Shown here: piece after piece, positions 1 through 17,718 of the stretch
How the letters are laid out: the number at the start of each line of letters is the position of its first letter
Position numbering within the stretch: the stretch's first letter is position 1
Assembly (NCBI RefSeq): GCF_016756395.1
Contig: NZ_AP018365.1
Span: 8,063,501 to 8,127,500, forward strand
DNA: 64,000 bases
Reading direction: 5' to 3'
DNA from: Streptomyces sp. SN-593
GTDB lineage: Bacteria > Actinomycetota > Actinomycetes > Streptomycetales > Streptomycetaceae
Made by a program: the position numbers and the translations under genes
The notes under the pieces: model-generated
The model's input: only the letters and a program-made list of their open reading frames with translations
Told to the model about the DNA's origin: nothing
The model's database searches: none

Positions 1-1
1 C

Positions 2-1273
2 TACGGGCTGTTCACCATGTACCTCGGCTTCCGCTTCGGCGACGGCGAGTACAAGGTGATGGGCCTGGCGCCGCACGGCGACCCCGAGCGCCACCTCGCG
101 GTGCTGACCGACCAGGTCCTCCAACTCGACACCGCGGGCCGCTACCGCACGCCGATCCTGCTCAGCAACGTCAGCACGCTCGACAAGGAGACCTACCGGC
201 CCGCGCTGGCCCGGCTGGAGGAGCTGTTCGGCCCGCGACGCGCCCCGGGCGACCCGCTCGACCAGCGGCACAAGGACATCGCCGCCTCCCTCCAGGCCGC
301 GCTCCAGGCCGCCCAATACCACTTCCTGTCCCATCTGCGCGAGTCGACCGGGCTGGACCGCCTCTGCCTGTCCGGGGGGGTCGCCCTCAACTGCGTCGCC
401 AACGGGACGCTGCTGCGCAGCGGGCTCTTCTCCGACATCCACGTGCAGCCCGCCGCCGCCGACGACGGAGCGGCGCTGGGGGCCGCGCTCTGGGCCGGCT
501 GGCAGCGGGGCGAGAGGGCCCGGCCGGTCCGGCACACCCTGCTCGGCCCCGGCTACGGTCCCGCGGAGTGCGAGGCCGCCGCCGCGTCCGTCCAGGGGGT
601 GACCGTCACCCGCTTCACCGACGACAAGGCCCTCACCGACCACGTCGCCGGACTCATCGACGAGGGCGCGGTGGTCGGCTGGTTCCAGGGGCGGATGGAG
701 TTCGGGCCGCGGGCGCTCGGCAACCGCAGCATCCTCGCCGACCCGCGCCGGCCCGACATGCGCGCGCGGATCAACGCCCTCGTCAAGAAGCGCGAGTCCT
801 TCCGCCCGTTCGCGCCGGCGGTCACCGCCGAGGCCGCCGCGGAGCTGTTCGAGATCGACCCCGAGGACGTGTCCCGCTTCGCCGAGATGCTCTTCGTCTG
901 CTACGTGCGGCCCGAGCACGCCGACCGGATGCCCGCCACCACCCACGTCGACGGGTCGGCCCGGACGCAGACCGTCAGCAGCGCCGACAACGCGCTCTTC
1001 CACCAGCTCATCCAGGCGTTCGAGCACCGCACCGGGCTGCCGGTCCTCCTCAACACCTCCTTCAACCAGGCGAACCAGCCGATCGTGCGGACCCCGCAGG
1101 AGGCCGTCGACACCTTCCTGGCGGCGGGGCTGGACGCCCTCGTGCTGGGCGACCTGCTGCTCCTGCCCGACGGCCGGCCGGACGCCGCCGACGCCTCTGA
1201 CGCCGCCGATGCCGCCGATGCCGCCGCCGCCAGCGCCGAGGGGAAGGCCGAGGAGCGCCATGCCGACCGCTGA
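2..1273 (+). CDS. O-carbamoyltransferase (NodU/CmcH family), 5' partial
   Basis: C-terminal part of a carbamoyltransferase that transfers a carbamoyl group from carbamoyl phosphate to a hydroxyl of a natural product. The reading frame is open to the left edge, so the N-terminal part lies outside; family members are usually 550-600 residues and about 420 are present. Visible family motifs are GDGEYKVMGLAPHG, the Kae1-like segment LCLSGGVALNCVAN, then the C-terminal block FGPRALGNRSILADPR and LLNTSFN. The last 30 residues are an Ala/Asp-rich low-complexity tail. It overlaps the downstream NRPS by 14 nt, so it very probably tailors that product. Family call is firm; the acceptor is unknown. Confidence 0.92.
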   Translation, partial: YGLFTMYLGFRFGDGEYKVMGLAPHGDPERHLAVLTDQVLQLDTAGRYRTPILLSNVSTLDKETYRPALARLEELFGPRRAPGDPLDQRHKDIAASLQAALQAAQYHFLSHLRESTGLDRLCLSGGVALNCVANGTLLRSGLFSDIHVQPAAADDGAALGAALWAGWQRGERARPVRHTLLGPGYGPAECEAAAASVQGVTVTRFTDDKALTDHVAGLIDEGAVVGWFQGRMEFGPRALGNRSILADPRRPDMRARINALVKKRESFRPFAPAVTAEAAAELFEIDPEDVSRFAEMLFVCYVRPEHADRMPATTHVDGSARTQTVSSADNALFHQLIQAFEHRTGLPVLLNTSFNQANQPIVRTPQEAVDTFLAAGLDALVLGDLLLLPDGRPDAADASDAADAADAAAASAEGKAEERHADR

Positions 1274-4200
1274 CCGCGCGCCCGCCGGCACCGACGAGGG
1301 GCAGCTCTCCTTCCCCGCCCTCGGCGCGCACGTCTCCGTCCCCACCCGCCGGCGCGGCACCCACACCGCGCCCGGACCCTCCGATCCGGCCGAACTGGTC
1401 GCGGCGCTCGCCCTGTTGCTCGCCCGCCACACCGATGCGGACACCGTGACCGTCGGCCTCGTACGGCGCGAGGACGGGCGGTGGGTGCTCCGCCCGGTGC
1501 GGCTCGACCTGTCGGAGCCCTCCTGGGCCCGCGCCCTGGCCGCGGTCCGGGACCAGGCCGCGGCGGCGCCGTCCGCCGCAGCCGACCGGCCGCTCCCCGC
1601 CGCGGTCCCGCCCGTCGTGGTGGTGGAGGGCGCACCCGGCGCGGGCGAGACGCCCGAGGTCCGCCGGGCGGTCCGCGCCGCGCAGGTGGCGGTGCGTACC
1701 GAACCCGGCGGCGGGGACGCCCGGTGGGAACACGACGCCGACCGCCACAGCACGACGGACATCGCCCGGCTGGCCGCGCAACTGCGCCGCGTGGCCGCCG
1801 CGGGCCGTGCGGAGCCGGACCTCCCGGTCGGCGCCATGGACCTGCTGGAGGAGCCCGAGCGGGCCGAGGTGCTCGCCGCGTCCGGCCCGCGCACCCCCTC
1901 CGACGGCCGGGACCGGCTCGACCTGATGTTCGCCCGGCAGGCGGCACGCCACCCCGAGCACATCGCCGTCACCACGGCCGAGGGCGATCTCACCTACGGC
2001 CGCCTCGACGCCTGGTCGCGCGCCGTCGCCGACGCGCTGACCCGCCGGGGCGTCGGGCCGGGCGACCGGGTGGCCGTCCGGCTGCCGCGGTCCGCGGCCC
2101 TGGTCGCCGCCCTGCTGGGGGTGCTGCGCACCGGCGCGGCCTACGTCCCGCTCGATCCGGCCCAGCCGGCCGGGCGCCAGCGCCGCATCACCGACGCGGC
2201 GCAGCCGGCCGCCCTCCTCGTGCCGGAGGGCGACGACGCACCCGGACCCGGCACGCCCGTCGTCAGCGTGCCGCCCCTCGCGGCCGCCCCGCCGGCGGCC
2301 GGCGGGACCGCGGGTACCGGGCCGCTGCCCGCCCCGGACCGGGCCGGCGGCCAGGACGGTCCCGACGCACCCGCGTACGTCCTGTTCACGTCCGGATCGA
2401 CCGGGCAGCCCAAGGGGGTCGAGGTCCGGCACACCAACGTGGTGCGGCTGTTCGACACCACCCGGACGCTCTTCGCCTTCGGCGACCGCGACGTGTGGCT
2501 CAACGCGCACAACTTCGGCTTCGACGCCTCGGTCTGGGAGGTGTACGGAGCGCTGCTCCACGGTGGGCGGCTGGTCATCCCGGACACCGCCACCCTGCGC
2601 GACCCCGACGCCCTCACCGGGCTCGTCGCCCGCGAGGGCGTCACCATGCTGGCGCTCTCGCCCACCGCCTTCGAGGGCTTCCGGGACAGCGCGGTGGCGG
2701 CCGGCCTGCGGATGCCGGCCCTGCGGCACCTGGTGCTGTGCGCGGAGGCGCTCGCCCTGGGCTCGCTGGCCCGCTGGTACGAACACCTGGGCGACACCCC
2801 GACCCGGGTCTGCAACATGTACGGCATCACCGAGACGACCGTGCACAGCACCCACCTCCCGCTGACCCCGGCCGACGTGCGCGACCCGCGCCGCCGCATC
2901 GGCCGTCCGCTGCCGGACACCGCCCTGCACGTCCTCGACGCGCAGGGCCGGCCGGTGCCGTTCGGCGTGCCCGGAGAGATCTGCGTGGGCGGCCCCGGCG
3001 TCTCCGGCGGGTACCTGCGTCCGCCCGAGGACGGCCGCGACCCCTTCCTCCCCGACCCCTTCTCCGCCCGCCCCGGCGCGCGTATGTACCGGTCCGGGGA
3101 CAAGGGGCGCCGGCTGGCCGACGGCTCCGTCGAGTACCTCGGCCGCTTCGACCACCAGGTCAAGATCCGCGGGCACCGGGTCGAACTCGGCGAGGTGGAG
3201 GCCGCGTTCCTCACCCTGCCCGGCATCCGCAGCGCCCGGGCGTGGACCGTGCGGCGCCCCGGCCGCCCCGCGGTCATCGCGGTGGCCGTGGTCCCCGCCG
3301 GGGACGCCCGCCCCGACACCGCGCAGTTGCGCGCCCGCGCCGCCGAGCGCCTGCCGGCCTACATGGTTCCCGCGGCGGTCGTGGCGGTGCCGGCGCTGCC
3401 CCGCACCCCCAACGGCAAGCTGGACGTCGCCGTCCTGCCCGACCCCTTCGCCGAACCGTCCGCGGACTCCTCGGCCGAACCGTCCGGCGGCCCCTCGGGT
3501 GGCCCCTCCGCCGAACCGTCCGCGGACCCGTCCGGCGGTCCCGAGGCCGCCGATCCGGCGCTGCGGGCGGTGCGGGACGCCTTCCGCGAGGTCCTGGGCC
3601 TCACCGGCGACGTGGACGCCGGCTTCTTCGCCCTCGGCGGGGACTCCATCACCGCGCTGCGCCTGGTCGCCCTGCTGCGCTCCGCCGGGCACGACGCGTC
3701 CGTCGCCGACGTCTACGCCCACCGCACCACCCGCGACCTCGCCGCCGCGCTGTCCCCGCGCGACCGCGCGTCCGACGAGGACCTGCGCCCCTTCGCGCTG
3801 CTGGCCGGCACCGACACCGCGCGGGTGCCGGCGGACGCCGTGGACGCCATGCCGGCCACCCGGCTCCAGCAGGGCATGCTGCTGCACAGCCTGCTGGACG
3901 GCGAGCACATCTACCACGACGTCCTCGGCTACACCGTGGCCGGCGCCCCGGACGAGGACACGCTGCGCGCCGCCCTGGACGCCGCCGTCCGCCGCCACCC
4001 GGTGCTGCGCACCTCGTTCAGCACCGAGGGCACCGACGCGCCGCTCCAGATCGTCCATCCCACCGCGCGGATACCGCTCCACGTCCGGGACCTGCGGGCA
4101 CTGCCGGAGCCGGAGCGGCAGGACCGGATGGCGCGGTGGGTCCAGGAGGAGCGCCGCACCCCCTTCGACTGGACGGTGCCCGGACTGCTCCGGGTCTTCG

Positions 4201-7112
4201 CCCACCGCACCGACGACGACGCGTGGGTGCTGTCGCTCTCGGTCCACCACTGCATCCTCGACGGCTGGAGCGCGGCCACGCTCGTCACCGAACTGCTGGC
4301 CCCGGACACCGCCGCGCCGGACCGCCCCGAGGACGCCGACGCCCCCGGCCACATGGCCCGCTACGGCAGACTGGAGCGGGCCGCCGAGTCCGACGCCGCC
4401 TCGCTGGCCTACTGGCGCGACTACCTGCGCGACGCCGAACCGACGTCCCTGCCCGGCGACGAGGCGGCCGCGCCCGGGACCGCCGCCCCCCGGACCGCCC
4501 CCGGCGGGGAACCCGCCGCCGACCACGCCGCCGACCACGACGTCGACACCGTCACCGTGGCGATCCCCGCCGAGGCCGTCCGCGCGCTGCGCGAACTGGC
4601 GCGCGCCGAGGGCGTCCCGGCCAAGACCGCCTACCTCGCCGCCCACACCGCCCTGCTCGCGCACACCTGCGGCCGGCCCGAGGTGCTGACCGGGGTGGTG
4701 ACCAGTTGCCGGGTCGAGGAGGAGGGCGGCGACCGCGCGCTGGGCCTCTTCCTCAACACCCTGCCGCTGCGCGTGCGCGGCGGCGACCAGACGTGGCGGG
4801 AACTGCTGCGCGAGGTGTGGCTGAACGAGTCCCGGAGCCACCCGCACCGCCGCGTGCCCTTCGAGCGCGTCCAGGCCGCCTCCGCGGCCGCCCGGCTGGC
4901 CCCCACCGCGTTCAACTACACCGACTTCCACGTGTACCACCGGCTGGCCGCGGCCGGAGTACGGCTGGAGGCCACCGACTACCGCGAGGCGACCGACTTC
5001 CGCCTGCTGCTGACCGTCGCCGAGGAACCCGTCGGCGACCGCGTCACCGTGACCCTGGCCTACGACCGCGCCGCGCTCGGCGCCGAACAGGCCGCCGCCT
5101 GGGGGCAGCGCTACGCGGACCTCGTGCACCTCGCCGGCCGGGACCCCGACCTCCCGGCCGTGCGCGCGCTGGCCGAGCGGGTCGCGGCCGAGGGGGCGGC
5201 CTGCGAACTGCCCGCGACCCCGCCGGCCGCTCCCTACCGGCCGCTGACCGCGCGCGTCGCCGAGCGCCTGCTGCGCGAGCCGTCGGCGGTCGCCCAGTCC
5301 GCCCGGGGCAGGGAGCAGACCTGCGCCCGGCTGGCCGTCGCCGTCCAGCACCTGCGCGACGACCTGGCGGCCGCCGGGGTGCGACCCGGCCAGCGGGTCG
5401 CCTGCTTCCTCCAGCGCGGACTCGACCCGCTCACCGCGCTCCTGGGCGTGTGGGCCGCCGGAGCCGTCTACACCCCGGTCGATCCGGCCCTCCCCGAGGC
5501 CCGGCAGCGCGAGATGACCGCTCGGGCGGGCTGCGTCCATGCCGTGAGGTCCCAGGGCGTCCGCGCCGAACGGGTGGCCTGGGACGGGCCGCAGACGGTC
5601 CTCGGCCCGGCACCCGCCGGAGGGCGCGCCGACCCGGCCGGCTGGCACGCCGCGCGACCCGGTGAGGAGGCGTACGTCCTGTTCACCTCCGGCTCCACCG
5701 GCGTCCCCAAGGCGGTGGCGATGCCGCACCGGTCGATCGCCGCACTGGTCGCCTGGCAACTGGACCAGCCCGAGTTCCGCACGCCCAGCCGGATCGGCCA
5801 GTACGCCGCCTTGTCCTTCGACGTCTCCGTGCAGGAGATGCTCACCGCCGCGGCCGGCGGCGGCACCCTGGTGGTCGTCCCGGACGAGGCCCGGCGGGAC
5901 GCCCAGGCGCTGCTGGAGGTGCTGGGGCGGGAGTGGGTCGAGGTGCTGTTCCTGCCGCCGGCGATGCTCGCCCAACTGGGCGTCGGCCACCGCGCCTTCG
6001 GGACGGTCCCGACCGCCCTGCGGGCGGTGCTGACCGCGGGCGAGGCACTGGTGGTGACCGAGGAGGTCCGCGACCTGTGCCGGGCCGGCCGGATCGCGCT
6101 GGTCAACCAGTACGGACCCACCGAGACCCACGTCGCCGTCGCGCACCGGCTGACCGGCGATCCGGCCGACTGGCCCGAACGTCCCCCCATCGGGCGGCCG
6201 GTGGCCGGCGTCGCCGTATCGGTGCGCGACCCGCTCGGCCGCCCCGTCCCCCGCGGCACCCCGGGGGAGCTGGTGATCGGCGGCACCGCCCCGGCCCTGG
6301 GCTACGTGGACGCCGCCGGGACCGACCCGCGGACGGCCGAGCGCTTCACGACGTCCGCCGACGGCGCCCCCGCCTACCGCACGGGCGACCTGGTGCGCTG
6401 GGACGGCACCGTCCTCGACCACCTGGGACGGCTGGACGACCAGCTCCAGATCCGCGGATTCCGGATCGAGCCCGGCGAGGTCGCCCCGCGGCTGCTGGAG
6501 CACCCGGCGGTCACCGCCTGCGCCGTCATCGGCGAGCCCGGCCCCGGCGGGGCCCTCGTGCTGGCCGCCTACCTGGTCGCCGACCCGGCGCTCCCCGCCC
6601 CCACGGCCGCCGACCTCACCGCACACCTCCGGGCCCGGCTCGCCGACCACGCGGTGCCGGCCCGCTTCACGCTGCTGACCCGGCTGCCGCTGACCGCCAA
6701 CGGCAAGCTGGACCGCGCCGCGCTCGCCGCCGACCCGTCGCTGCGCGCCCGTGCGGCGGAGGAACCGCCGGACGCGGCCTTGAGCGCGACCGAGCGCCGG
6801 CTGCTGTCGGCCTGGCAGGAGGTGCTCGGCCACCCGGTCGCCTCGGCCACCGTGTCGTTCTTCGACGCCGGGGGCACCTCGCTGCTCCTGCTGCCGCTCT
6901 ACCTGACGCTGAGGAAGTCCTTCGCCGACGCGGACCTCACCCTCAACGACCTCTTCCGCTTCCCGACCGTCCGGCAGTTCGCACGGTACGTCGACGGCGA
7001 CGGCCGCCGGCAGCCTGCCGCCGCCCCCCGCCCCGGCCGCGTACCGGCCCACATGCTCGCCGCCGCACGACGCAGCAGATCAGCCCGCGGACAGGAGAAG
7101 ACCGATGAGTGA
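1260..7112 (+). CDS. Two-module NRPS: partial C - A - T - C - A - T
   Basis: Non-ribosomal peptide synthetase of 1950 residues. ATG 1260 is chosen because AGGAG lies just upstream; an earlier in-frame ATG at 1209 has no such site. Order: a C-domain-like C-terminal lobe without HHxxxDG (about 1-215), A1 (220-720, LFTSGSTGQPKG, NGKLD), a Pro/Ser-rich linker, T1 (LGGDS), a complete C domain (HHCILDG near 995), A2 (1335-1820, LFTSGSTGVPKA, NGKLDR) and T2 (AGGTS near 1874). Hand-read specificity codes are DAWAVCMVHK for A1, nearest the threonine type, and DVQFLAQVAK for A2, nearest proline types; both are tentative. It overlaps the PKS gene by 8 nt. Confidence 0.93.
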   Translation: MPTADRAPAGTDEGQLSFPALGAHVSVPTRRRGTHTAPGPSDPAELVAALALLLARHTDADTVTVGLVRREDGRWVLRPVRLDLSEPSWARALAAVRDQAAAAPSAAADRPLPAAVPPVVVVEGAPGAGETPEVRRAVRAAQVAVRTEPGGGDARWEHDADRHSTTDIARLAAQLRRVAAAGRAEPDLPVGAMDLLEEPERAEVLAASGPRTPSDGRDRLDLMFARQAARHPEHIAVTTAEGDLTYGRLDAWSRAVADALTRRGVGPGDRVAVRLPRSAALVAALLGVLRTGAAYVPLDPAQPAGRQRRITDAAQPAALLVPEGDDAPGPGTPVVSVPPLAAAPPAAGGTAGTGPLPAPDRAGGQDGPDAPAYVLFTSGSTGQPKGVEVRHTNVVRLFDTTRTLFAFGDRDVWLNAHNFGFDASVWEVYGALLHGGRLVIPDTATLRDPDALTGLVAREGVTMLALSPTAFEGFRDSAVAAGLRMPALRHLVLCAEALALGSLARWYEHLGDTPTRVCNMYGITETTVHSTHLPLTPADVRDPRRRIGRPLPDTALHVLDAQGRPVPFGVPGEICVGGPGVSGGYLRPPEDGRDPFLPDPFSARPGARMYRSGDKGRRLADGSVEYLGRFDHQVKIRGHRVELGEVEAAFLTLPGIRSARAWTVRRPGRPAVIAVAVVPAGDARPDTAQLRARAAERLPAYMVPAAVVAVPALPRTPNGKLDVAVLPDPFAEPSADSSAEPSGGPSGGPSAEPSADPSGGPEAADPALRAVRDAFREVLGLTGDVDAGFFALGGDSITALRLVALLRSAGHDASVADVYAHRTTRDLAAALSPRDRASDEDLRPFALLAGTDTARVPADAVDAMPATRLQQGMLLHSLLDGEHIYHDVLGYTVAGAPDEDTLRAALDAAVRRHPVLRTSFSTEGTDAPLQIVHPTARIPLHVRDLRALPEPERQDRMARWVQEERRTPFDWTVPGLLRVFAHRTDDDAWVLSLSVHHCILDGWSAATLVTELLAPDTAAPDRPEDADAPGHMARYGRLERAAESDAASLAYWRDYLRDAEPTSLPGDEAAAPGTAAPRTAPGGEPAADHAADHDVDTVTVAIPAEAVRALRELARAEGVPAKTAYLAAHTALLAHTCGRPEVLTGVVTSCRVEEEGGDRALGLFLNTLPLRVRGGDQTWRELLREVWLNESRSHPHRRVPFERVQAASAAARLAPTAFNYTDFHVYHRLAAAGVRLEATDYREATDFRLLLTVAEEPVGDRVTVTLAYDRAALGAEQAAAWGQRYADLVHLAGRDPDLPAVRALAERVAAEGAACELPATPPAAPYRPLTARVAERLLREPSAVAQSARGREQTCARLAVAVQHLRDDLAAAGVRPGQRVACFLQRGLDPLTALLGVWAAGAVYTPVDPALPEARQREMTARAGCVHAVRSQGVRAERVAWDGPQTVLGPAPAGGRADPAGWHAARPGEEAYVLFTSGSTGVPKAVAMPHRSIAALVAWQLDQPEFRTPSRIGQYAALSFDVSVQEMLTAAAGGGTLVVVPDEARRDAQALLEVLGREWVEVLFLPPAMLAQLGVGHRAFGTVPTALRAVLTAGEALVVTEEVRDLCRAGRIALVNQYGPTETHVAVAHRLTGDPADWPERPPIGRPVAGVAVSVRDPLGRPVPRGTPGELVIGGTAPALGYVDAAGTDPRTAERFTTSADGAPAYRTGDLVRWDGTVLDHLGRLDDQLQIRGFRIEPGEVAPRLLEHPAVTACAVIGEPGPGGALVLAAYLVADPALPAPTAADLTAHLRARLADHAVPARFTLLTRLPLTANGKLDRAALAADPSLRARAAEEPPDAALSATERRLLSAWQEVLGHPVASATVSFFDAGGTSLLLLPLYLTLRKSFADADLTLNDLFRFPTVRQFARYVDGDGRRQPAAAPRPGRVPAHMLAAARRSRSARGQEKTDE
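3450..3552 (+). repeat. Pro/Ser linker built from short direct repeats inside the NRPS
   Basis: Between A1 and its T domain the coding sequence repeats the unit ccgaaccgtccgcggac, encoding (A)EPSAD-like and GGPS blocks. The stretch gives a flexible linker of about 35 residues, longer than most A-T linkers. It looks like in-frame slippage growth and does not disrupt the gene. Confidence 0.75.
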
Positions 7113-10100
7113 ACCGGACCCCACGACAACCGAGACGGATGTCGCCATCATCGGGATGTCCTGCCGCTTCGCCGGCGCCCCGGACCCGGAGACCTACTGG
7201 CAGCGGATCTGCGAGGGCAGGGAACTGCTCACCCGCTTCACCGAGGAGGACCTGGCGGCGGCCGGCACCAGCCGCGAACTGCTCGACGACCCCGCCTTCG
7301 TCCGGGTCAGCAGCCTCATCGAGGGAGCGGGCGCCTTCGACGCCGACTTCTGGGGGATCTCCTCCAGCGAGGCCGCGCTGATCGACCCCCAGCACCGGCT
7401 GCTGCTGGAGCTGAGCTGGCACGCCCTGGAGGACGCCGGCTACGACCCCTCCCGCCACCCCGGCGACATCGGCGTCTTCGCCGGCGGCGGCCGGCACGCC
7501 TACCTGCGCTACATCGAGCCGGACTTCCGCGCCACCGAGCACCTCGACGGCTCCATCCGGGGCCTGCAGTCCGACCTCGGCAACTACGGCGACTTCCTGG
7601 CCACCCGCGTCTCGTACAAGCTCGGCCTCACCGGGCCGGCGCTCAACGTGCAGACGGCCTGCTCCACCGGCCTCGTGGCCGTCCACCTGGCCTGCCAGAG
7701 CCTGCTGCTCGGCGAGAGCGACATCGCCCTCGCCGGCGCGGTGAACGTCCACACCCCCCAGGTCAACGGATACGTCTACGAGGAAGGGTCGATCTGCTCG
7801 CCCGACGGGCACCTGCGCCCCTTCGACGCCGACGCCAGCGGGTCGGTCTTCGGCAACGGCGGCGGGGTCGTCGCCCTCAAGCGGCTCAGCGACGCACTGC
7901 GGGACAACGACCGGGTGGTCGCCGTCATCAAGGGCTCGGCGATCAACAACGACGGCGCGGACAAGATGAGTTTCACCGCGCCCAGCATCAGCGGGCAGGC
8001 CGACGTCATCCGCCGGGCGCTCCAGGCCGCCGGGGTCGAACCCGGCGGGATCGGCTTCGTGGAGACCCACGGCACCGGCACCGCCATGGGCGACCCGATC
8101 GAGGTCGCGGCCCTGACCGCCGCCTACGGCACCGACACCGCCGCCCGCCGCTGCGCGCTCGGCGCGGTCAAGGCGCAGATCGGCCACCTGGGCAACTCCG
8201 CCGGGATCGCCGGTCTGATCAAGGCCGCGCTCGTGCTCGAACACGGCGTCATCCCGCCGGTGGTCAACTTCAGCACCCTCAACCCCGCCATCGACCTGAC
8301 CGGTTCGCCCTTCTACGTGCCCGTCGACAGCGAGCCCTTCGAGGGCGTGCGCCGGGCCGGGGTGAGCGCCTTCGGCGTCGGCGGCACCAACGCGCACGCG
8401 GTGCTCGAACAGGCCCCGCCCGCCGCCGCCCGCCGGGCGGCCGAACAACCGGCACCCACCGCGCGCCCCCTGCCCTTCGTGCTCTCCGCCCGCTCCGCCG
8501 AGGGGGTCGCCGCGCTGCGGCGCGCGCACGGCACCGCGCTGCGCCCGGCCGCCGCGCCGGACGCGGTCGACGCGGCCTACGTCCTGGCCACGGGCCGCAA
8601 GGGCTTCCGGTACCGGACCTTCACCGTCGCCGCCACCGCGGCCGAGGCGGCCAGGGCGCTCGCGGCCTCCGCCGAGCCGCCCGTGGTCTCCGCCGGGACC
8701 GACCTGCCGGTCGTCTTCGCCCTGCCCGGTGAGGGAGCCCAGTTCGTCGGCCTCGGCCGGGAACTGTACGCCGCGGACCCCGACTACCGGCGGCATGTCG
8801 ACGCGTGCGCCCGGGTCCTGGAGGAGTTGGAGGGCTACGACATCCGGGACCTGCTGTTCCCCGATGCCGAGGACCCGGCCGCCACGGAACGCGCCACCAC
8901 CCTGCTCGCCCAGGCGCCCTGGGCCCAACCGGCCACGTTCATCACGGAGTTCAGCGTCGCCCGCACCCTGATGGAGGCGGGGGTGGTGCCGGACGTCCTG
9001 GTCGGCCACAGCCTGGGCGAGTACGCCGCCGCCTGCCTGGCCGGGGTCTTCAGTGTCCGCGACGCGCTGCGGGTGGTCTCCGCCCGCGGCCGGCTCATGC
9101 AGTTCAGCACGCCCGACGGAGCCATGGCCGCCGTCGGGCTGGACGAGGAGGAACTGCTGCGCCTGCTGCCGGACGACCTGGACCTGGCCGGGGTCAACGC
9201 CGTCGGCCAGTGCGTGGTGTCCGGGACCGCGGAGGCCATCGGGCGCTTCCAGGAGCGGCTGGACGAGGAGGACATCCGCAACACCCGGCTGGCCACGTCC
9301 AACGCGGCCCACTCCCGGCTGATGGACGGCATCGCCGCCGAGTACCGGGAACTGGTCGCCTCGGTGGAGAAGAACAAGGCCGGCCTGCGGATCGTGTCCA
9401 CCGTCACCGGCCGCGAGATCGCCGCCGAGGAGATGACCGACACCGAGTACTGGCTGCGGCACCTGCGCAGCCCCGTGCGCTTCCGGGCGGCGGCGCTCAC
9501 GGTGCTGGAGGGCGGCCACGCGGTGGTCCTGGAGACCGGCCCCGGCCGCGCCCTGACCCGGATGTTCGAGAACAGCGGCAGCCCGGTCGGCAGCTACGGC
9601 GTCACCCCCTGGCTGAAGGACCAGCCCGGGCCCGGCTCCACCGCGGAACTCGTCGCGCGGATCTGGGCGCACGGCGGCCGCGTCGACTGGGAGCGGTACT
9701 TCGCCGGGCTCGCCCCGGCCCGGGTGGCGCTGCCCGGCTACCCCTTCGAGCGCAACGACTACTGGATCGACGTCGACCCGGCCGCGGTCCCCGCCGACCT
9801 GCCCGAACTGCGGCGTTCGGCCGGGCTGACCGGCTGGCTCCAGGCACCGAGGTGGACGGCCGCGCCCCTGCCCGTGGAACCGGCCGCCGTCCGCCGGGTG
9901 CTGCTGACCGGGGCGGCGTCGCCCGCCGCGCTCACCGACGCGGTGGCGGGAGCGCTGGCCGCGGCCGGCCACCACGTGGTGCGGCACGACGGGCCCGCCC
10001 TGCCGCCGGACGCCGTCGACACGGTGGTGCACCTGGCGGCCGGGCCCCGCTCCGAGCCCGCCGCCGGGACCCTCGGCACGGCCGTCGACACCCACTTCTG

Positions 10101-13100
10101 GCCGCTCCTGGAGACCGTGCGGGACCTCACCGCCCGGCCGGGAACGCAGGACCTGGACGTCCTGGTCGTCACCTCGGCGCGGCACGCCGTGCTGCCCGGC
10201 GACCTGGCCGACCCGTACGCGGCGCTGCTGACCGGTCCGAGCCGGGTCCTGCCGCAGGAGTACCCCACGGTGCGGCTGGCCGAGCTCGACCTCGCCGACC
10301 TCCACGGCCCCGGCGCCGCGGGCGACCTCTCCGGCCCCGGCACCGCGGCCGAGGCCGCCGACCTGGTGACCGCCGAACTGGGCCACTTCGTGCCGAACTC
10401 CGTGGCCGCCCACCGCGCCGGAGTGCGCCATGTGCGCGACTACCGGGCGCTCCCCAGCCTGACCGCCCCGCCCCCCTGGCACGAGGACGGCAGTTACCTG
10501 GTCACCGGCGGGCTCGGCGAGATCGGCCTGGCCCTGGCCGCGGACGCCGCCCGGCACGCCCGGGTGCGCCTGGTCCTCACCCACCGCTCCGAGTTCCCCG
10601 CCCCCGAGGACTGGGCCCGGGCCGCGCAGGACCCGGCCACCGGCGCGGACACCCGGCGCCGGCTGGAGACACTGCTGGAGATCGCGGCCGGCGGCAGCGA
10701 GGTCGTCTGCGCCCGCGCCGACGTCACCGACCGCGACGCCATGGCCCGGCTCCGCGCGCTGCACGGGCCCTTCCACGGCGTGATCCACGCCGCCGGTGTG
10801 CCCAGCGGACGGCTCGCGGGGACCCTGGACCGCGAGCACGCGGACGCCGTCCTGGCCCCCAAGGTGCGCGGCACCGTCGTCCTGCACGAGGCCGTCGCCG
10901 ACGAGCACACCGAGTGGATGGTGCTGTGCTCGTCCATGGCCGCGGTCGTCGGCGGCCTGGGCCACGCCGACTACGCCAGCGCCAACGCCTTCATGGACGC
11001 CTTCGCCCAGTGGCGGGACGCCGGCGGCCACCGCACCGTGTCGGCGAACTTCGACTCCTGGACCGACGGCGGCATGGCCGTCAAGGAGGCCGAGAAGCGG
11101 CACACCGCCCCCACCGGCGACACCGAGCGCTGGGAGCCGCTGGACCACCCGCTGTTCACCGCCAGGGCCGCGGCGGGCGCCGCCTACCGGGGCGCCATGG
11201 CCCGCGGCACCCACTGGATCCTCGACGAGCACCGGGTGGGCGGCACCCCCCTGGTTCCCGGCACCGCGATCCTGGACCTCCTGGGGGCCGCGGCGGAGCT
11301 CCACCTCGGCCACGACCGCTTCGCGCTGACCGAACTCGACCTGCTGCGCCCGCTCACCGGCAGCGGCGGCCGGGTCGAGTACACCGTCCGGTTCGTCACG
11401 GCGGACGACGGCACCGACGGCCCGGACGGCCCGGACGGAGCCCCGGACCCGGCCGGCGCGCAGGACGGGTCGGCGGGCGTGGTCACCGTCACGGTGAGCG
11501 GACTGGCGCCCGACGGCTCCTGGTACCAGCAGGCCGTCGGCCGGCTCGAACCGCTGGAGAGGTCCCCGGAATCCCCGGAATCCGCCGAAGCTCCGGAGCA
11601 CGCGACCGGCGCCGAACCGTCGGAACCCGCCGCGGACGCCGCGGACACGCCGCCCGCCGCCCGCTCCGACCTGCTGACCTTCGGGCCGCGCTGGGACAAC
11701 CTGCGGGCGGTCCGGCGGGTCGGGCCGGACGAGGTCGAGGCCGTGTGCGTCCTCGACGACGCCTTCCGCGCCGACCTCGACACCCACCGGGTGCACGCCG
11801 CCCTGCTGGACACCGCCGCCGGCGCCATGGTGCCGCTGGTCAGCGACCGCGTCCACCTGCCCCTGTCCTACGAGCGGGTCGTGGTCCACAGCCGGATGCC
11901 CCACCACGTCGTCAGCCGCATCACCCGCAGGGACAGCGACGAGAGCGACGCGCTGGTCTTCGACGTCGCCGTCCGGGACGCCGGCGGACGGCCGGTCCTG
12001 GACATCGAGGGGTACACGCTGCGGGCGGTCGATCCCGCCCGGCTCGCCGACGAACTCGCCGACGACCCCGGCGGCGAGGGCGCCGCCCGGCCGCAGAACC
12101 GCCGCCTGGTCACCACCGATCCCGGCGACCTGTCGGCCCTGGGCATGGTGCCGGCCGCCCGCCGGGCGCCCGGTCCCGGCGAGATCGAGATCGAGGTCAG
12201 GGCCACCGGCCTGAACTTCAAGGAGGTGCTGATCGCCGCCGGGATGCTGGACGCCCCGACCGCCGACCACTCCTTCGGCCTGGAGTGCGCCGGCCTGGTC
12301 ACCGCCGTCGGCGAGGGCGTCGGCCGGCAGGTGCGGGTCGGCGACGCGGTGATGGGCGTCGGCGCCTCCTGCTTCGCCGACTACGCCGTGCTGAAGGCCG
12401 CACTGACCTGCCCGATCCCGGCGGGCATGACCTTCAGTCAGGCCGCCTCGATCCCCGTCGCCTTCACCACCGCCTACGACAGCCTCATCGCCTCGGCCGG
12501 ACTGGGCCGCGGCGAGCGCATCCTGATCCACGCCGGCGCCGGGGGAGTGGGACTGGCCGCACTCCAGCTCGCCACCCACGCGGGCGCCGAGGTCTGGGCC
12601 ACCGCCGGCAACGAGACCAAGCGCGACTTCCTGCGCAACCTCGGCGCCACCCTTGTCGCGGACTCCCGCAGCCTCGACTTCGAGGCCGCCGTCACCGGCG
12701 CCGGCGGGGTCGACGTGCTGCTCAACTCGCTGGCCGGCGACTTCATCCCCGCCGGGCTGCGCTGCCTGCGCCCGCGCGGCCGCTTCGTGGAGATCGGACG
12801 CCGCGACATCCTCGCCGGCACCGCGCTGGACCTGTCGCTCTTCGCGGAGGGGCGCACCTTCACCGCGTACAACCCGGAGATCGACGGAGACGCCTGGGAA
12901 CGCGCCTGGCGGCAGGTCGTCGGTCTGCTCCGGCAGGGGGCGATCACCCCGCTGCCGGTCCGCACCTTCCCCGTCGAGGAGGCCGACGAGGCGTTCGCCT
13001 TCATGTCCCGGGCGCACCACATCGGCAAGGTGGTCGTCGCGCGTCCGGGCGCCCAGGAACCGGCCGCGCCCACCGGCTCGGCGGACGCCACCGGTGAGGT

Positions 13101-13542
13101 GCAGGGGCTGACCACGGCCGTCGGTGTGCGCACCTTCCTCGACGCCCTGGGCGCCGGAGTGCCCCAGGTGCTGGTCAGCCGCCGCTCGGTGGCCGCCGCC
13201 GGCGGCCAACTGGTCGTGGCCGGCCACGTCCTGCAGGAGACCGGCGGCAGCCGCACCAGCGCCCGGCCCGACCTGCCCTACCCCTACGAGCCCCCGCAGA
13301 CCGAGACCGAGGAGCGACTGGGCGGTCTGTGGGGAGCGCTGCTGACCATCGACCCCGTCGGCCGGCACGACCGCTTCCTGGACCTGGGCGGCGACTCCCT
13401 GTACGCCACCCAGATGGTCGCGCGGATCCGCAAGGTGTTCGGGGTCCGGGTCGCACCCGCCGACATCCTGGGCGGACTGGACCTCGCCGGCCTCGCCGAC
13501 GCCATCGACCGCCAGGTCGACACCGCCCTGGAACAGCGGTGA
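7105..13542 (+). CDS. Type I PKS module, KS-AT-KR-DH-ER-ACP
   Basis: Single modular polyketide synthase of 2145 residues. KS: Cys186 in TACST, ETHGTGT, and a His in GHLGNSAG. AT: Ser636 in GHSLGE, with SNAAHS at the position that is HAFH in malonyl-type and YASH in methylmalonyl-type ATs, so malonyl is the weak guess. KR: VTGGLGEIG near 1131, SS near 1276 and Tyr1290 in YASAN. DH: His1376 in HRVGGTPLVP and a later LLDTA. ER: HAGAGGVG near 1810. ACP: Ser2098 in LGGDS. All reductive sites look intact, so it should add one fully saturated ketide unit. KR before DH-ER is not the usual order. ATG follows a GGAG-type site and overlaps the NRPS stop. Confidence 0.94.
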   Translation: MSEPDPTTTETDVAIIGMSCRFAGAPDPETYWQRICEGRELLTRFTEEDLAAAGTSRELLDDPAFVRVSSLIEGAGAFDADFWGISSSEAALIDPQHRLLLELSWHALEDAGYDPSRHPGDIGVFAGGGRHAYLRYIEPDFRATEHLDGSIRGLQSDLGNYGDFLATRVSYKLGLTGPALNVQTACSTGLVAVHLACQSLLLGESDIALAGAVNVHTPQVNGYVYEEGSICSPDGHLRPFDADASGSVFGNGGGVVALKRLSDALRDNDRVVAVIKGSAINNDGADKMSFTAPSISGQADVIRRALQAAGVEPGGIGFVETHGTGTAMGDPIEVAALTAAYGTDTAARRCALGAVKAQIGHLGNSAGIAGLIKAALVLEHGVIPPVVNFSTLNPAIDLTGSPFYVPVDSEPFEGVRRAGVSAFGVGGTNAHAVLEQAPPAAARRAAEQPAPTARPLPFVLSARSAEGVAALRRAHGTALRPAAAPDAVDAAYVLATGRKGFRYRTFTVAATAAEAARALAASAEPPVVSAGTDLPVVFALPGEGAQFVGLGRELYAADPDYRRHVDACARVLEELEGYDIRDLLFPDAEDPAATERATTLLAQAPWAQPATFITEFSVARTLMEAGVVPDVLVGHSLGEYAAACLAGVFSVRDALRVVSARGRLMQFSTPDGAMAAVGLDEEELLRLLPDDLDLAGVNAVGQCVVSGTAEAIGRFQERLDEEDIRNTRLATSNAAHSRLMDGIAAEYRELVASVEKNKAGLRIVSTVTGREIAAEEMTDTEYWLRHLRSPVRFRAAALTVLEGGHAVVLETGPGRALTRMFENSGSPVGSYGVTPWLKDQPGPGSTAELVARIWAHGGRVDWERYFAGLAPARVALPGYPFERNDYWIDVDPAAVPADLPELRRSAGLTGWLQAPRWTAAPLPVEPAAVRRVLLTGAASPAALTDAVAGALAAAGHHVVRHDGPALPPDAVDTVVHLAAGPRSEPAAGTLGTAVDTHFWPLLETVRDLTARPGTQDLDVLVVTSARHAVLPGDLADPYAALLTGPSRVLPQEYPTVRLAELDLADLHGPGAAGDLSGPGTAAEAADLVTAELGHFVPNSVAAHRAGVRHVRDYRALPSLTAPPPWHEDGSYLVTGGLGEIGLALAADAARHARVRLVLTHRSEFPAPEDWARAAQDPATGADTRRRLETLLEIAAGGSEVVCARADVTDRDAMARLRALHGPFHGVIHAAGVPSGRLAGTLDREHADAVLAPKVRGTVVLHEAVADEHTEWMVLCSSMAAVVGGLGHADYASANAFMDAFAQWRDAGGHRTVSANFDSWTDGGMAVKEAEKRHTAPTGDTERWEPLDHPLFTARAAAGAAYRGAMARGTHWILDEHRVGGTPLVPGTAILDLLGAAAELHLGHDRFALTELDLLRPLTGSGGRVEYTVRFVTADDGTDGPDGPDGAPDPAGAQDGSAGVVTVTVSGLAPDGSWYQQAVGRLEPLERSPESPESAEAPEHATGAEPSEPAADAADTPPAARSDLLTFGPRWDNLRAVRRVGPDEVEAVCVLDDAFRADLDTHRVHAALLDTAAGAMVPLVSDRVHLPLSYERVVVHSRMPHHVVSRITRRDSDESDALVFDVAVRDAGGRPVLDIEGYTLRAVDPARLADELADDPGGEGAARPQNRRLVTTDPGDLSALGMVPAARRAPGPGEIEIEVRATGLNFKEVLIAAGMLDAPTADHSFGLECAGLVTAVGEGVGRQVRVGDAVMGVGASCFADYAVLKAALTCPIPAGMTFSQAASIPVAFTTAYDSLIASAGLGRGERILIHAGAGGVGLAALQLATHAGAEVWATAGNETKRDFLRNLGATLVADSRSLDFEAAVTGAGGVDVLLNSLAGDFIPAGLRCLRPRGRFVEIGRRDILAGTALDLSLFAEGRTFTAYNPEIDGDAWERAWRQVVGLLRQGAITPLPVRTFPVEEADEAFAFMSRAHHIGKVVVARPGAQEPAAPTGSADATGEVQGLTTAVGVRTFLDALGAGVPQVLVSRRSVAAAGGQLVVAGHVLQETGGSRTSARPDLPYPYEPPQTETEERLGGLWGALLTIDPVGRHDRFLDLGGDSLYATQMVARIRKVFGVRVAPADILGGLDLAGLADAIDRQVDTALEQR

Positions 13543-13588: not shown

Positions 13589-16500
13589 ATGAGCGGGGAC
13601 ACCGGCTCCGCCCGGCCGAAGGCGGGCCGGGTCGGCCCGGCGGCCCCCAACCAGCAGCGGTTGTGGCTGGCCGGCCGCCTCCACCCCGGCAACTGGTCGT
13701 ACCACATCGCCAGTTCGCTGGAGCTCACCGGCGACCTGCCGGTGGCGGTGCTGCGCCGGGCGCTCGGCGACCTGGTGCGCCGGCACGACGTCCTGCGCAC
13801 CACCTTCGAGGAGGCCGGCGGAGAACTGCGGATGTGCGTCGCCGACTCGGCCGCGGCGCGTCTCGACGTCGTCGACCTGCGCTCCGAGCCCGATCCGGAG
13901 GCCGCCGCCGAGGAGGCGACCGCGGCGGTGCGGCGGGAGCCGACGGACCTGGAGACCGGGCCGCTGTTCCGGGCCCTGCTGTGCCGTACCGCGGACGACC
14001 GGCACGTCCTGACCCTGCACGTCCACCACATCCTGGCCGACGGCTGGACGCTGGGCCTGCTCTGGGAGGAACTCGGGCTGCTCTTCGGCCGCCGGCTCGG
14101 CGAGGTCGTGACGCTGCCGCCCACCGGGGTGGCGTACACGCAGTGGGCGGCCGAGCGGCACGCCGAGCAGGGGTCGCCCGCCGCGGAGAAGGAACTGCAC
14201 GAGTGGCTCCACCGGCTCGGCGGGCTGGACAGCGACAACTCCCTGCGCACCGACCGTCCGCGGCCGGCCGTGCCGTCCTTCCGGGGCCGCACCCTGCAAC
14301 TGCCGATGCCGACCGGCCTCACCGCCGCGCTGCGGGAGACCGCCCGGAGCCGGGGCCGCAGCCTCTTCATGCTGCTGTGCGCGGGTTTCGCCGCGACCCT
14401 GGGCCACTACGACCGGCGGGAGGAGGTGGTGGTCGCCGTCCAGAGCTCCGGCCGCGCCGACCCGCGGGTGGCGCGCACCGCCGGGTTCTTCGTCAACACC
14501 CTTCCGATGCGCTTCGACCTGGGCGGCTCGCCGTCCCTGGGCCACCTGGTCGAGCAGGCCCGCGAGGGGACCCTCGCCGTCTCGGCGGCCGAGCACGTCA
14601 CCTACGAGCAGCTCACCCAGCGCACCGGCGCGTCCGGTGACCTGTCGATGAACCCGCTGGCCCAGGTGGCCTTCCAGCTCATGAGCGTGCCCATCCCGCC
14701 GGTGCGCTTCCGCGGGCTCCGGACCCGGCGCTGGTGGGACACCACCGCCGCCGCCAAGTTCGACCTCGGCCTGATGATGGTGCCCGCCGCGGGGGACGAC
14801 CTCACCGCCCTGTTCAGCTACTCCGAGGAACTGTTCGACGAGAGCACCGTGCGGGAGATCTGGCAGGCGTACCTGCGCGTGCTGGCGGAACTGGCCGCCG
14901 ACCCCGGCACCGCGCTGTGGGAGGTGCCGCTGCTCGGAGCCGACCGGCGCCGCGAGGCGGCCGCCGTGTCCCGCGGCCCGGCCCTGCCCGCCGCCCCGCC
15001 GAGCCGCCCCGCCCGGCTGCTGGCGGCCCTGGCCGAAGCCGCCCGGACGCCGTCCGACCGACCCGCGGTCACCTCCGGCCCGCGCAGCCTCACCCGGGCC
15101 GACCTGTGGGAGCGCGCCGGCCACCTCGCCCGGGCCCTGCGGGCCGCCGCGCCGGGCAGCCTGCCGGACCCCGCCGCGCCGGGACTCCTGCCGGACCCCG
15201 CCGACGGCTCCGCGTCCCCGGACCGGCCGGGACCGGGCGGTCCCGGGCCGCACCCGGCGCCCGGCGGCGGCTCCGTGGCCGGCGGACCCGCCCGGGTCCG
15301 CGCACCCGGCGGCGTCGTCCTCGTCTCCTGCCCGGACCGGATGGACACGCTCACGGCCGTGCTCGGCGCCTGGCGGGCGGGTGCCGCGGTGCTGGTCGCC
15401 GAGGAGGGCCCGGCCTCGCCCCGCACCGTGGACCTCGTACGGCGGCTGGGCGTCGCCCTGGGCGTCGGAACGCCGGACACCGACCCGCGCGGCCTCGACG
15501 GCGTCCGGTGGCTGGACGTCGCCGACCGCACCGGCGACCCGTCGCCGCCCCCGGACGACTGGGCCCTCGGCGACGACGACACGGCCTACGTGATCAGCAC
15601 CTCCGGCACCACCGGCCGCCCCCGCTCCGTCCCCGCCCGCATGGGCGCCTTCGGCGGGTACGTCATCCGCCAGGCCGCCGCCCTGCCGGCGGAGGCGACC
15701 GTCGCCCAGGTGCCGCCGCTCGGCTACGACCCCGGCATGCGCGACACCTTCACCGCGCTCGCCGCCGGAGCCCGCCTGGTGATCCCCGAGCGGATCGCCT
15801 CCGACCCGGTCGAGGCGCTGGCCGGCGTCCTGGCCGAGGGCGGGGCCGACACGGTCCTCGCCGTGGTGCCCAGCATCCTCGAAGCCGTCTGCCGCAGGCT
15901 CGACGAGCAGGGCGCCGCACCCCGCACGCGCCTGCTGCGCTGCTGCGGCGAGGCCCTGCCGCGGGCCACCGCGGTGCTCGCCCGGCGGGTGCTCGGACAG
16001 GTGCCGCACAACGACTACGGCCCCAGCGAGGCCACCATGGTCAGCGTCAGCGGGCACACCGACCCGGACCGGGCGCACGGCTCCCTGATGCCGATCGGCC
16101 GCCCGGAGCCCGGCGTGCGGGCCCTGGTCCTCGGCCCCGGCGGCCATCTCCTGCCCCCGGGCTTCACCGGCGAGATCCATCTCGCCGGGCCGCACCTGGC
16201 GCCGGGTTACCTCGACTCCGCCGACCCGTCCGACAGCCCCTTCCTGGCCCACCCGGACGGGCCGCTGTACCGGACCGGCGACCTCGGCCACCACGACGCC
16301 GACGGCCTGCTGCACTGGTCGGGCCGGGCGGACCGCCAGACCAAGGTGCGCGGCGTACGCGTCGACGTCGTCGAGGTCGAGACGGCCCTGCTCACCCACC
16401 CCTCGGTGCGCGACGCCGTGGTCGCCGTCCGCGGCGACGGCCCCGGCCGCCGGCTGGTCGCCTACGCCGTCGCGGCCGACGGCACCACCGGGACGGCGCT

Positions 16501-16939
16501 GCGCGACCACCTGCGCGCCCTGCTGCCCCGGCCCGCCGTCCCCTCGGTCGTCGAACTGCTGCCCGCCATCGAGCGCGGCCCGCGGGGCAAGGTCCGCTGG
16601 TCGCTGCTCCCGGAACCCACCGCCGCCCCGACCGGACGCCGCCCGGCGCAGGACGCCACCGAGCGGCGGATCGCCGAAGTCTGGCAGGAGGTGCTCGCCA
16701 CCGAGCACATCACCGGGTCCGACGACTTCTTCAGCCTGCTCGGGTCCGACGACGACTTCTTCGACCTGGGCGGCCACTCCCTGGCGGCCATGCGGATGGC
16801 CGCCAGGGTGGCCGAACTCACCGGCTGCCCGGTCACCGTCCAGCACGTCTTCGAGCACCCGACCCTCGCCGAGTTCGCGGGACTCGTCCGCTCCCTCACG
16901 AGCGACGTACCCGCCCCCGCCCCCGGAGCCGACCGGTGA
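13589..16939 (+). CDS. One-module NRPS: C - A (atypical) - T
   Basis: Synthetase of 1116 residues starting 46 nt after the PKS. The C domain (1-450) carries NQQRLWL and HHILADGW near 146 and would accept the PKS-bound chain. The A domain (about 475-1005) is divergent: core A3 reads STSGTTGRPRS without the usual Lys, A4 reads YDPGMRDTF instead of FDxSxxE, and A10 is RGKVRW. The hand-read code is DPRARCDMVK, which matches nothing I know. A Gly/Pro-rich insert lies near 517-570. The T domain has Ser1064 in LGGHS, and just before it the segment GSDDFFSLLGSDDDFFDLGG looks like a small duplication. No thioesterase or reductase domain follows. Confidence 0.92.
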   Translation: MSGDTGSARPKAGRVGPAAPNQQRLWLAGRLHPGNWSYHIASSLELTGDLPVAVLRRALGDLVRRHDVLRTTFEEAGGELRMCVADSAAARLDVVDLRSEPDPEAAAEEATAAVRREPTDLETGPLFRALLCRTADDRHVLTLHVHHILADGWTLGLLWEELGLLFGRRLGEVVTLPPTGVAYTQWAAERHAEQGSPAAEKELHEWLHRLGGLDSDNSLRTDRPRPAVPSFRGRTLQLPMPTGLTAALRETARSRGRSLFMLLCAGFAATLGHYDRREEVVVAVQSSGRADPRVARTAGFFVNTLPMRFDLGGSPSLGHLVEQAREGTLAVSAAEHVTYEQLTQRTGASGDLSMNPLAQVAFQLMSVPIPPVRFRGLRTRRWWDTTAAAKFDLGLMMVPAAGDDLTALFSYSEELFDESTVREIWQAYLRVLAELAADPGTALWEVPLLGADRRREAAAVSRGPALPAAPPSRPARLLAALAEAARTPSDRPAVTSGPRSLTRADLWERAGHLARALRAAAPGSLPDPAAPGLLPDPADGSASPDRPGPGGPGPHPAPGGGSVAGGPARVRAPGGVVLVSCPDRMDTLTAVLGAWRAGAAVLVAEEGPASPRTVDLVRRLGVALGVGTPDTDPRGLDGVRWLDVADRTGDPSPPPDDWALGDDDTAYVISTSGTTGRPRSVPARMGAFGGYVIRQAAALPAEATVAQVPPLGYDPGMRDTFTALAAGARLVIPERIASDPVEALAGVLAEGGADTVLAVVPSILEAVCRRLDEQGAAPRTRLLRCCGEALPRATAVLARRVLGQVPHNDYGPSEATMVSVSGHTDPDRAHGSLMPIGRPEPGVRALVLGPGGHLLPPGFTGEIHLAGPHLAPGYLDSADPSDSPFLAHPDGPLYRTGDLGHHDADGLLHWSGRADRQTKVRGVRVDVVEVETALLTHPSVRDAVVAVRGDGPGRRLVAYAVAADGTTGTALRDHLRALLPRPAVPSVVELLPAIERGPRGKVRWSLLPEPTAAPTGRRPAQDATERRIAEVWQEVLATEHITGSDDFFSLLGSDDDFFDLGGHSLAAMRMAARVAELTGCPVTVQHVFEHPTLAEFAGLVRSLTSDVPAPAPGADR
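16716..16764 (+). repeat. Short tandem duplication at the carrier-domain entry
   Basis: The codons for GSDDFFSLLG and GSDDDFFDLG lie head to tail, with near-identical DNA (cgggtccgacgacttcttc versus the same with one extra gac). Normal carrier domains have a single DDFFxLGG block. The duplication is in frame and adds about 10 residues before the phosphopantetheine Ser. Confidence 0.7.
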
Positions 16940-17718
16940 TGACAGCAGACAACGGCACCCCCGCCCCCCGCCTGCTCTGCCTGCCCTACGCGGGCGGCAG
17001 CGGCGTGGCCTACCGCCACTGGTCGTCGGCCTTCCCCCGCAACGAGGTCGTCGCCTTCGACTACCCGGGACACCTGATGCGGCCCGGCGAGCGCCTCGCC
17101 CGCACCATGGACGCCCTGGTCGGCCGGATCGAGGAGAGCGTCAGCGCCCACTGGGACCGCCCCTTCGTCCTCGTCGGGTCCAGTCTCGGCGCGCTCGTCG
17201 CCTACGAGTTGGCGTCGCGCGCCGAGCAGCGCGGCACCCCGCCGGCCGCGCTGGTCGTCCTGGCCTGCCCGGGGCCGGGCCGGCTGTGGAAGCACCCGCC
17301 CATCGCCGGACTGGACGACGAGCGCTTCTCCGCCGCCTTCGGCACCCGCTACGGCGGACCCGCGGCCGGACTGCTGGGAGACCCGGACCACCGGGAACTG
17401 CTCCTGCCCATCGTGCGGGCCGACATGGAGCTGTTCGAGGAGTACGCCGGAGGGCGGCACGAAGCCGTCGGCTGCGATGTCATCGCCGTCACCGGCACCG
17501 AAGACGCGGCCGCGCCCGGCGAGGACGTGGACGCCTGGCACGACCACACCAGCGGCGCGGTCCACGTCCTGAACGTCCCGGGCGGCCACTTCGTCGTCGA
17601 GGAACCCGGCCGATTCGCCGGAGCGCTCAGCAGCCTGCTCGACGGCAGGCCGGCCGCCCCGCTGCTTGGGCCGGCCGCAACGCCGTCTCCGTCCCCCGAC
17701 CCGAGGACTCCGAGATGA
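16939..17718 (+). CDS. Stand-alone (type II-like) thioesterase
   Basis: Alpha/beta hydrolase of 259 residues of the discrete thioesterase class that removes stalled acyl groups from carrier domains. Visible are LPYAGGSG near the N-terminus, the nucleophile Ser82 in GSSLG (the family usually has GHSMG), a probable acid Asp189 and His217 in GGHF. The start overlaps the NRPS stop and its own stop overlaps the polyprenyl synthase start, so all are probably one transcript. As the last NRPS module has no fused thioesterase, this protein might also release the product; that is inference. Confidence 0.9.
   Translation: MTADNGTPAPRLLCLPYAGGSGVAYRHWSSAFPRNEVVAFDYPGHLMRPGERLARTMDALVGRIEESVSAHWDRPFVLVGSSLGALVAYELASRAEQRGTPPAALVVLACPGPGRLWKHPPIAGLDDERFSAAFGTRYGGPAAGLLGDPDHRELLLPIVRADMELFEEYAGGRHEAVGCDVIAVTGTEDAAAPGEDVDAWHDHTSGAVHVLNVPGGHFVVEEPGRFAGALSSLLDGRPAAPLLGPAATPSPSPDPRTPR

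Follow-up and report, generated by a model that had tools for sequence, protein, structure and literature searches.

We analysed the nonribosomal peptide synthetase (NRPS) protein encoded at 13589-16939 on the forward strand of a 64,000-nucleotide stretch of Streptomyces sp. SN-593 DNA (the window; positions 8063501-8127500 of the 8.97 Mb genome). Its adenylation (A) domain, called the terminal domain below, is, as judged by sequence comparison, a highly diverged orphan with two arginines in its substrate pocket. We put the probability at about 0.45 that it is an active domain which loads an amino diacid (Asp/Glu/aminoadipate type) in the terminal condensation-adenylation-carrier (C-A-T) module of a carbamoyltransferase-associated NRPS-polyketide synthase (PKS) line. 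A preliminary description had flagged the interval as a final A domain. We found there a single open reading frame (ORF) of 1116 aa, and since the Pfam domains C (residues 17-451), AMP-binding (573-875), AMP-binding_C (929-1001) and PP-binding (1027-1100), all over cut-offs, lie inside it, the interval is a complete C-A-T protein and not the A domain alone.

An arginine pocket similar to that of ACV synthetase

Pocket codes were read from an alignment at what we take to be the GrsA anchor positions; the register is supported by the recognisable codes that came out for other domains (e.g. DFWNIGMVH, DVWHFSLVD). The terminal domain has D235, P236, R239, A278, R299, C301, D322, M330 and V331, with K517, which is identical to the code DPRARCDMVK with two pocket Arg that had earlier been read by hand. 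R239 was found in none of the 14 other A domains compared from the same genome (60 places of which match the whole protein) and in 11 of 105 compared rows. These 11 are the terminal domain itself, four copies of the first A domain (A1) of ACV synthetase (ACVS), five domains of a DxR group described below and one Ser-like domain (DVRHFSLVE). The 105 rows are not a random sample, as they comprise the best matches to the terminal domain or to that of locus L036 together with A domains picked by regular expression in the fetched loci; L021_m2_806 among them is unlikely to be an NRPS A domain.

To obtain the ACVS sequences, an IPNS protein was searched against 394 family genomes, four of which gave a match at E≤1e-60. 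An ORF of 3749-4066 aa with three A domains next to the IPNS match was taken as the ACVS gene, and in all four genomes A1 has the code EPRNLVEFV and the A4 motif FEPHLRQT. Like the terminal domain, ACVS A1 has an acid at 235 (E in ACVS A1, D in the terminal domain), Pro236, Arg239, an acid at 322 and Val331, and one of its four copies also lacks the A3 Lys. Among the 105 rows this five-residue combination was restricted to the terminal domain and the four near-identical ACVS A1 rows, as was the smaller set of P236, R239 and acid 322. Identity between the two is about 30%, and ACVS A1 is a loading A-T module whereas the SN-593 domain sits in a terminal C-A-T. When the 62 distinct other codes were scored by BLOSUM over nine positions (self score 51), EPRNLVEFV and DPRSMTQNT were nearest (15 each), followed by DPYNLCIVT and DARSASQMT (14 each). 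Only 16 of 20000 column-shuffled codes matched the likeness of the terminal domain to the ACVS code, a figure that is descriptive because the ACVS code was chosen after the terminal code had been seen. In Nocardia lactamdurans, according to one account, ACVS adenylates aminoadipate at the delta-carboxyl with strict specificity (PMC7147772). The best 60 of 121 PDB sequence matches to the ACVS A1 query included no molecule named ACV synthetase.

If an amino diacid is indeed the substrate, the terminal module would accept a chain from the upstream NRPS and PKS module (KR, DH, ER) and extend it by a dicarboxylic amino acid (Asp/Glu/aminoadipate type). Arg239 and Asp322, perhaps with Arg299, would form a charged pocket end that holds the second carboxylate (and the amino group), as inferred for ACVS A1, and the side-chain carboxyl would be adenylated if the orientation were the same as there. 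Pfam found no thioesterase domain in the C-A-T protein, so release would take place in trans, either by the discrete thioesterase whose gene overlaps or by some other enzyme; involvement of this thioesterase or of the free-standing condensation domain upstream is possible.

Fold and conservation of the terminal domain

Structure prediction, a check proposed in the preliminary description, recovered the A-domain fold. The AlphaFold2 model of residues 466-1012, built from 25 aligned sequences, had a mean predicted local distance difference test score (pLDDT) of 81.2 and a predicted template modelling score of 0.78. PDB A domains matched it with Z scores of 40.7-43.7 among the best 50 rows (1amu_A: Z 41.3, 385 aligned residues, root-mean-square deviation 2.5). 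The pLDDT fell below 50 only at the first seven residues and in a Pro/Gly insert (model residues 59-108). Half of the 50 residues of this insert are Pro or Gly; it separates motif A1 from A2, which places it, as had been noticed before, in the N-terminal part of the domain. A short PDPA-type repeat was read by eye in its translation (LPDPAAPGLLPDPA, within 15158-15307).

Besides AMP-binding, AMP-binding_C and the adenylate-forming fold, the terminal domain has the A5 YGPxE, A7 YRTGD and A10 Lys expected of an NRPS A domain; A8 and the LGGHS of the carrier are present as well. The earlier reports of an A3 motif without its Lys (TTGRPRS) and of YDPGMRDTF in place of the A4 consensus FDxSxxE were borne out, and both consensus motifs vary in other compared rows too. 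In an 82-row alignment over A3-A8, 45 columns show conservation of 90% or more across the other 81 rows, and the terminal domain keeps 39 of them. It departs at K8R, H14M, F53Y, T180S, R320P and E361D, and four of these positions also depart in L036. Its identity to any of the 81 rows is at most 39.5% over A3-A8, reaching 44% over a 176-aa stretch. Since 87% of the conserved columns are kept at identities below 40%, long neutral drift appears unlikely.

The A3 Lys is also absent from the ACVS A1 of L031 (TSGTTGTPNG, beside the IPNS gene), from L036 and from L067, so that its loss alone is not evidence of a dead domain; the A3 and A4 departures should not by themselves be taken as inactivity. 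There is no internal stop, and the GC content at third codon positions (GC3) is 0.97 in the A core, which is weak evidence for activity because mutation bias keeps GC3 high. Neither the catalytic motifs nor the frame has been lost. Judging from sequence and model together, the terminal domain is probably not dead but functional as a selector.

Other Arg239 domains and the position of the terminal domain

The actinobacterial Arg239 domains of the DxR group (L010, L033/L062, L036/L063, L067 and L069) have an A4 motif of the form [FY]D[AP]x[IVL]RD, as does the terminal domain, in which R239 is likewise followed by Asp. L036 and L067 also have, like it, a Tyr ahead of D235 and no A3 Lys, and L069 is 39% identical to it. 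Their codes (DARSVSHLT, DARSLSQMT, DARSVSQMT, DARSASQMT and DPRSMTQNT) differ from that of the terminal domain in having S278, V/L/A/M299, S/T301, Gln or His at 322 and T331. The group was collected in two sets: at E≤1e-14, 49 of 374 genomes matched (best nine candidates per genome scored, loci taken for up to 30), and at E≤1e-70, 118 of 394 did (best three scored, loci for up to 25); its size is a lower bound. In L010 and G147 (L089-L091) the Arg239 module comes after a Ser-like (DVWH..), then aliphatic-type code (DAFFLGMTF or DAYFWGATF). On a 4.5 kb contig (L063, 1500-4495), an Arg239 A domain (DARSVSQMT) adjoins a Lant_dehydr_N gene; no further NRPS domain was apparent when the frame of the A domain was inspected by eye.

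Two trees were built, an unmasked tree of 82 rows and a masked tree of 66 of the 105 rows, thinned by hand, which kept all but one of the four ACVS A1 rows and had the A4 and pocket columns masked. The terminal domain formed the longest end branch in both (1.69 unmasked, 1.74 masked) and had no supported neighbours; assignment to a known A-domain clade, named in the preliminary description as a result that would speak against it, was thus not obtained. In the unmasked tree a label of four Arg239 rows (terminal domain and ACVS left aside) needs two changes, with L042 standing apart among Ser-type rows. When the terminal domain was held with the five DxR domains in the masked tree, the log-likelihood (lnL) was 6.8 above that of the free search (p 0.593); held with L036 and L067 alone, it was 2.1 better (p 0.54). 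Two control groups (Phe-type DAWTVAAVC and Ser-type) gave an lnL about 15.5 lower and were not rejected either (p 0.255 and 0.296). Because neither control was rejected, the trees leave the terminal domain unplaced, and a common origin with the DxR group is favoured rather than shown.

Searches for close orthologues returned the own genome alone at E≤1e-70 among 35 genus genomes. The same was found at E≤1e-70 among 394 family genomes and at 1e-55 among 394 class genomes, where the best four candidates per genome were scored and a relative could be missed; the genus, family and class sets overlap. A scan of genome contigs gave eight loci at 30-37% identity. Matches were present in 1653 plasmid records, with the best places all below 60%.

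Weighing of the possible readings

Several results weigh against amino-diacid loading by an ACVS-like pocket. A clade of the terminal domain with ACVS A1 was rejected in the masked tree (lnL 59.7 lower, approximately unbiased test p 0.032, with long branches in play), and the four ACVS A1 rows, being near-identical, count as one lineage. DPRSMTQNT scores closer to the ACVS code (16) than the terminal domain does (15), yet has Gln at 322. R299 is without counterpart in ACVS A1 and recurs only in a single row, with the code DMPARGEAY. None of the 82 rows keeps a smaller share of the conserved columns than the terminal domain; L010_p0_4974 keeps the same share, and five of its six misses are gaps. 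The published codes are likewise equivocal. A survey from 2025, covering 2051 bacterial A domains, gives DPRHLALLAK for aminoadipate and DPRHVSLLAK as coming from Asn-activating domains (PMC12283262), and the latter shares its DPR start with the terminal domain. So does Zmn16 A1 of the zeamine cluster (DPRHLALLAK), which differs in the rest of the code and whose aminoadipate label goes with an in-silico prediction, as its Table 2 entry indicates (PMC3547906). A DPR start thus suggests a side chain of the Asp/Asn/Glu/aminoadipate class, but by itself says neither whether this is an acid or an amide nor at which carboxyl activation takes place. The earlier suggestion that the arginines hint at an acidic or otherwise unusual substrate is strengthened by the residues shared with ACVS A1, with the Asn-type DPR code as a caveat.

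Literal string searches of the literature library used gave no match for the exact code DPRARCDMV, nor for DPRSMTQNT, EPRNLVEF, DPRHSG, DARSLSQ, DPRHSGVV, EPRNIVEF or DARHVGIF; DARSVS and DARHV were not found among the matches listed. Microcystin synthetase codes starting DPR and DAR were not used as tests.

It is quite possible, at odds well short of even, that the domain is active on a neutral or unusual substrate (Asn/Gln-like or non-proteinogenic, for example) with activation of the alpha-carboxyl, R239 and R299 being partly neutralised by D322 or binding a carboxamide. Besides the Asn-type DPR code, the retained D235 fits such a substrate, since this residue holds the alpha-amino group in alpha-amino-acid domains, as stated in PMC11355689. 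The five other Arg239 codes with Gln or His in place of an acid at 322, and the lnL gained when the terminal domain is held with them, point the same way. This gain is tempered by the two unrejected controls, and the joint presence of P236, R239 and acid 322 in the terminal domain and ACVS A1 only speaks for the diacid. A degenerate, inactive domain, with its carrier loaded in trans or the module skipped, is improbable. The longest end branch in both trees, the changed A3 Lys, A4 Ser and A4 Glu and the tied-lowest share of conserved columns would fit it, but A5, A7, A8 and the A10 Lys are intact, the frame is free of stops with high GC3 (a weak point), most conserved columns survive at low identity, and the A3 Lys is also missing elsewhere; inactivity, raised as an option in the preliminary description, has thus become less likely. 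No point was found in support of a sequencing or assembly artefact, which is hardly credible given the open frame, the high GC3 in each part and the confident AlphaFold2 prediction for most of the domain apart from the insert.

Returning to the amino-diacid reading, the arginine pocket apparently resembles the aminoadipate pocket of ACVS A1 by convergence, as the rejected common clade implies. A bolder proposal is that the pocket converged on the ACVS solution (Pro236-Arg239 plus acid 322), that activation in the terminal module takes place at the side-chain carboxyl of an amino diacid and that P236/R239/acid 322 is a rule for distal-carboxyl activation; we consider it unlikely. If true, the product would have an iso-linked or side-chain-thioester terminus, and the triad would predict other iso-linking modules. 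Arg239 codes are uncommon in the compared rows and poorly assigned, at least one aminoadipate label on a DPR code going with software prediction. The terminal domain, with its ACVS-like pocket, is a direct test case for whether Pro236/Arg239/acid 322 marks distal-carboxyl activation.

Gene neighbourhood

In a run of genes all read in the same direction, the C-A-T gene comes fourth, after those for the carbamoyltransferase, the NRPS A-T-C-A-T and the PKS module and before that for the discrete thioesterase (Table 1). Upstream of the window lie genes for P450s, a short-chain dehydrogenase/reductase, an enoyl-CoA hydratase, an acyl-CoA ligase, a thiolase-like protein, a free-standing condensation domain and an IS110 transposase; a polyprenyl-synthase-like ORF and a NUDIX gene are found downstream.

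Table 1. Features of the C-A-T gene and its surroundings (window coordinates unless a locus is named)
Feature	Position	Strand	Basis
NRPS protein C-A-T, terminal module, 1116 aa	13589..16939	+	ORF, Pfam
Condensation domain, active-site motif HHILADGW present (residues 146-153)	13637..14941	+	Pfam PF00668 1.5e-74, motif position
Adenylation domain, about residues 466-1012, code DPRARCDMV(K)	about 14984..16624	+	Pfam PF00501/PF13193, AlphaFold2, PDB matches
Pro/Gly-rich insert, residues 524-573, predicted disordered	15158..15307	+	pLDDT <50, 50% P+G
A3 motif TSGTTGRPRS, Lys to Arg	15599..15628	+	motif position
A4 motif YDPGMRDTF, holds D235, P236, R239	15725..15751	+	alignment, motif position
Codon of second pocket Arg, R299 in GrsA numbering, residue 784	15938..15940	+	alignment, motif position
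Codon of D322 (residue 809) within A5 NDYGPSEAT	16013..16015	+	alignment, motif position
A7 LYRTGDLG and A8 GRADRQTKVRGVRV	16265..16363	+	motif positions
A10 RGPRGKVRW with catalytic Lys K517 (residue 1001)	16574..16600	+	motif position
Carrier (T) domain with LGGHS	16667..16888	+	Pfam PF00550, motif position
Carbamoyltransferase, ORF start about 610 bases before window	1..1273	+	Pfam PF16861/PF02543
NRPS A-T-C-A-T, codes DAWAVCMVH and DVQFLAQVA	1209..7112	+	Pfam, alignment codes
PKS module KS-AT-KR-DH-ER-ACP, just upstream of C-A-T	7105..13542	+	Pfam, motif positions
Discrete thioesterase, type II-like, GSSLG; ATG overlaps NRPS stop	16939..17718	+	Pfam PF00975, translation
Free-standing condensation domain, 11-12.5 kb before window	L019 1035-2522	-	locus annotation
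IS110-family transposase, between acyl-CoA ligase and thiolase-like ORFs upstream of window	L019 7841-9094	-	locus annotation

In the PKS module the reductive domains follow KS-AT in the order KR-DH-ER instead of DH-ER-KR. This reductive part gave a match at E≤1e-60 in four of 14 genomes, the own genome included, with the other matches covering 322 to 436 of 1245 residues. The stretch made up of module 2 and the PKS module has a relative in a hybrid NRPS/PKS of Streptomyces clavuligerus (WP_106432074.1), at 45-50% identity and with an A code that likewise starts DVQF. Its ORF has one A-domain motif set and ends after the PKS, unlike the SN-593 line, and no C-A-T gene was found among the listed features in 43 kb of the plasmid locus, whose gene table is incomplete. 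This relative (L100, 13188-23492) is carried by the linear 707 kb plasmid NZ_CP065235.1, where it adjoins sulfotransferase and pyridoxal-dependent decarboxylase genes.

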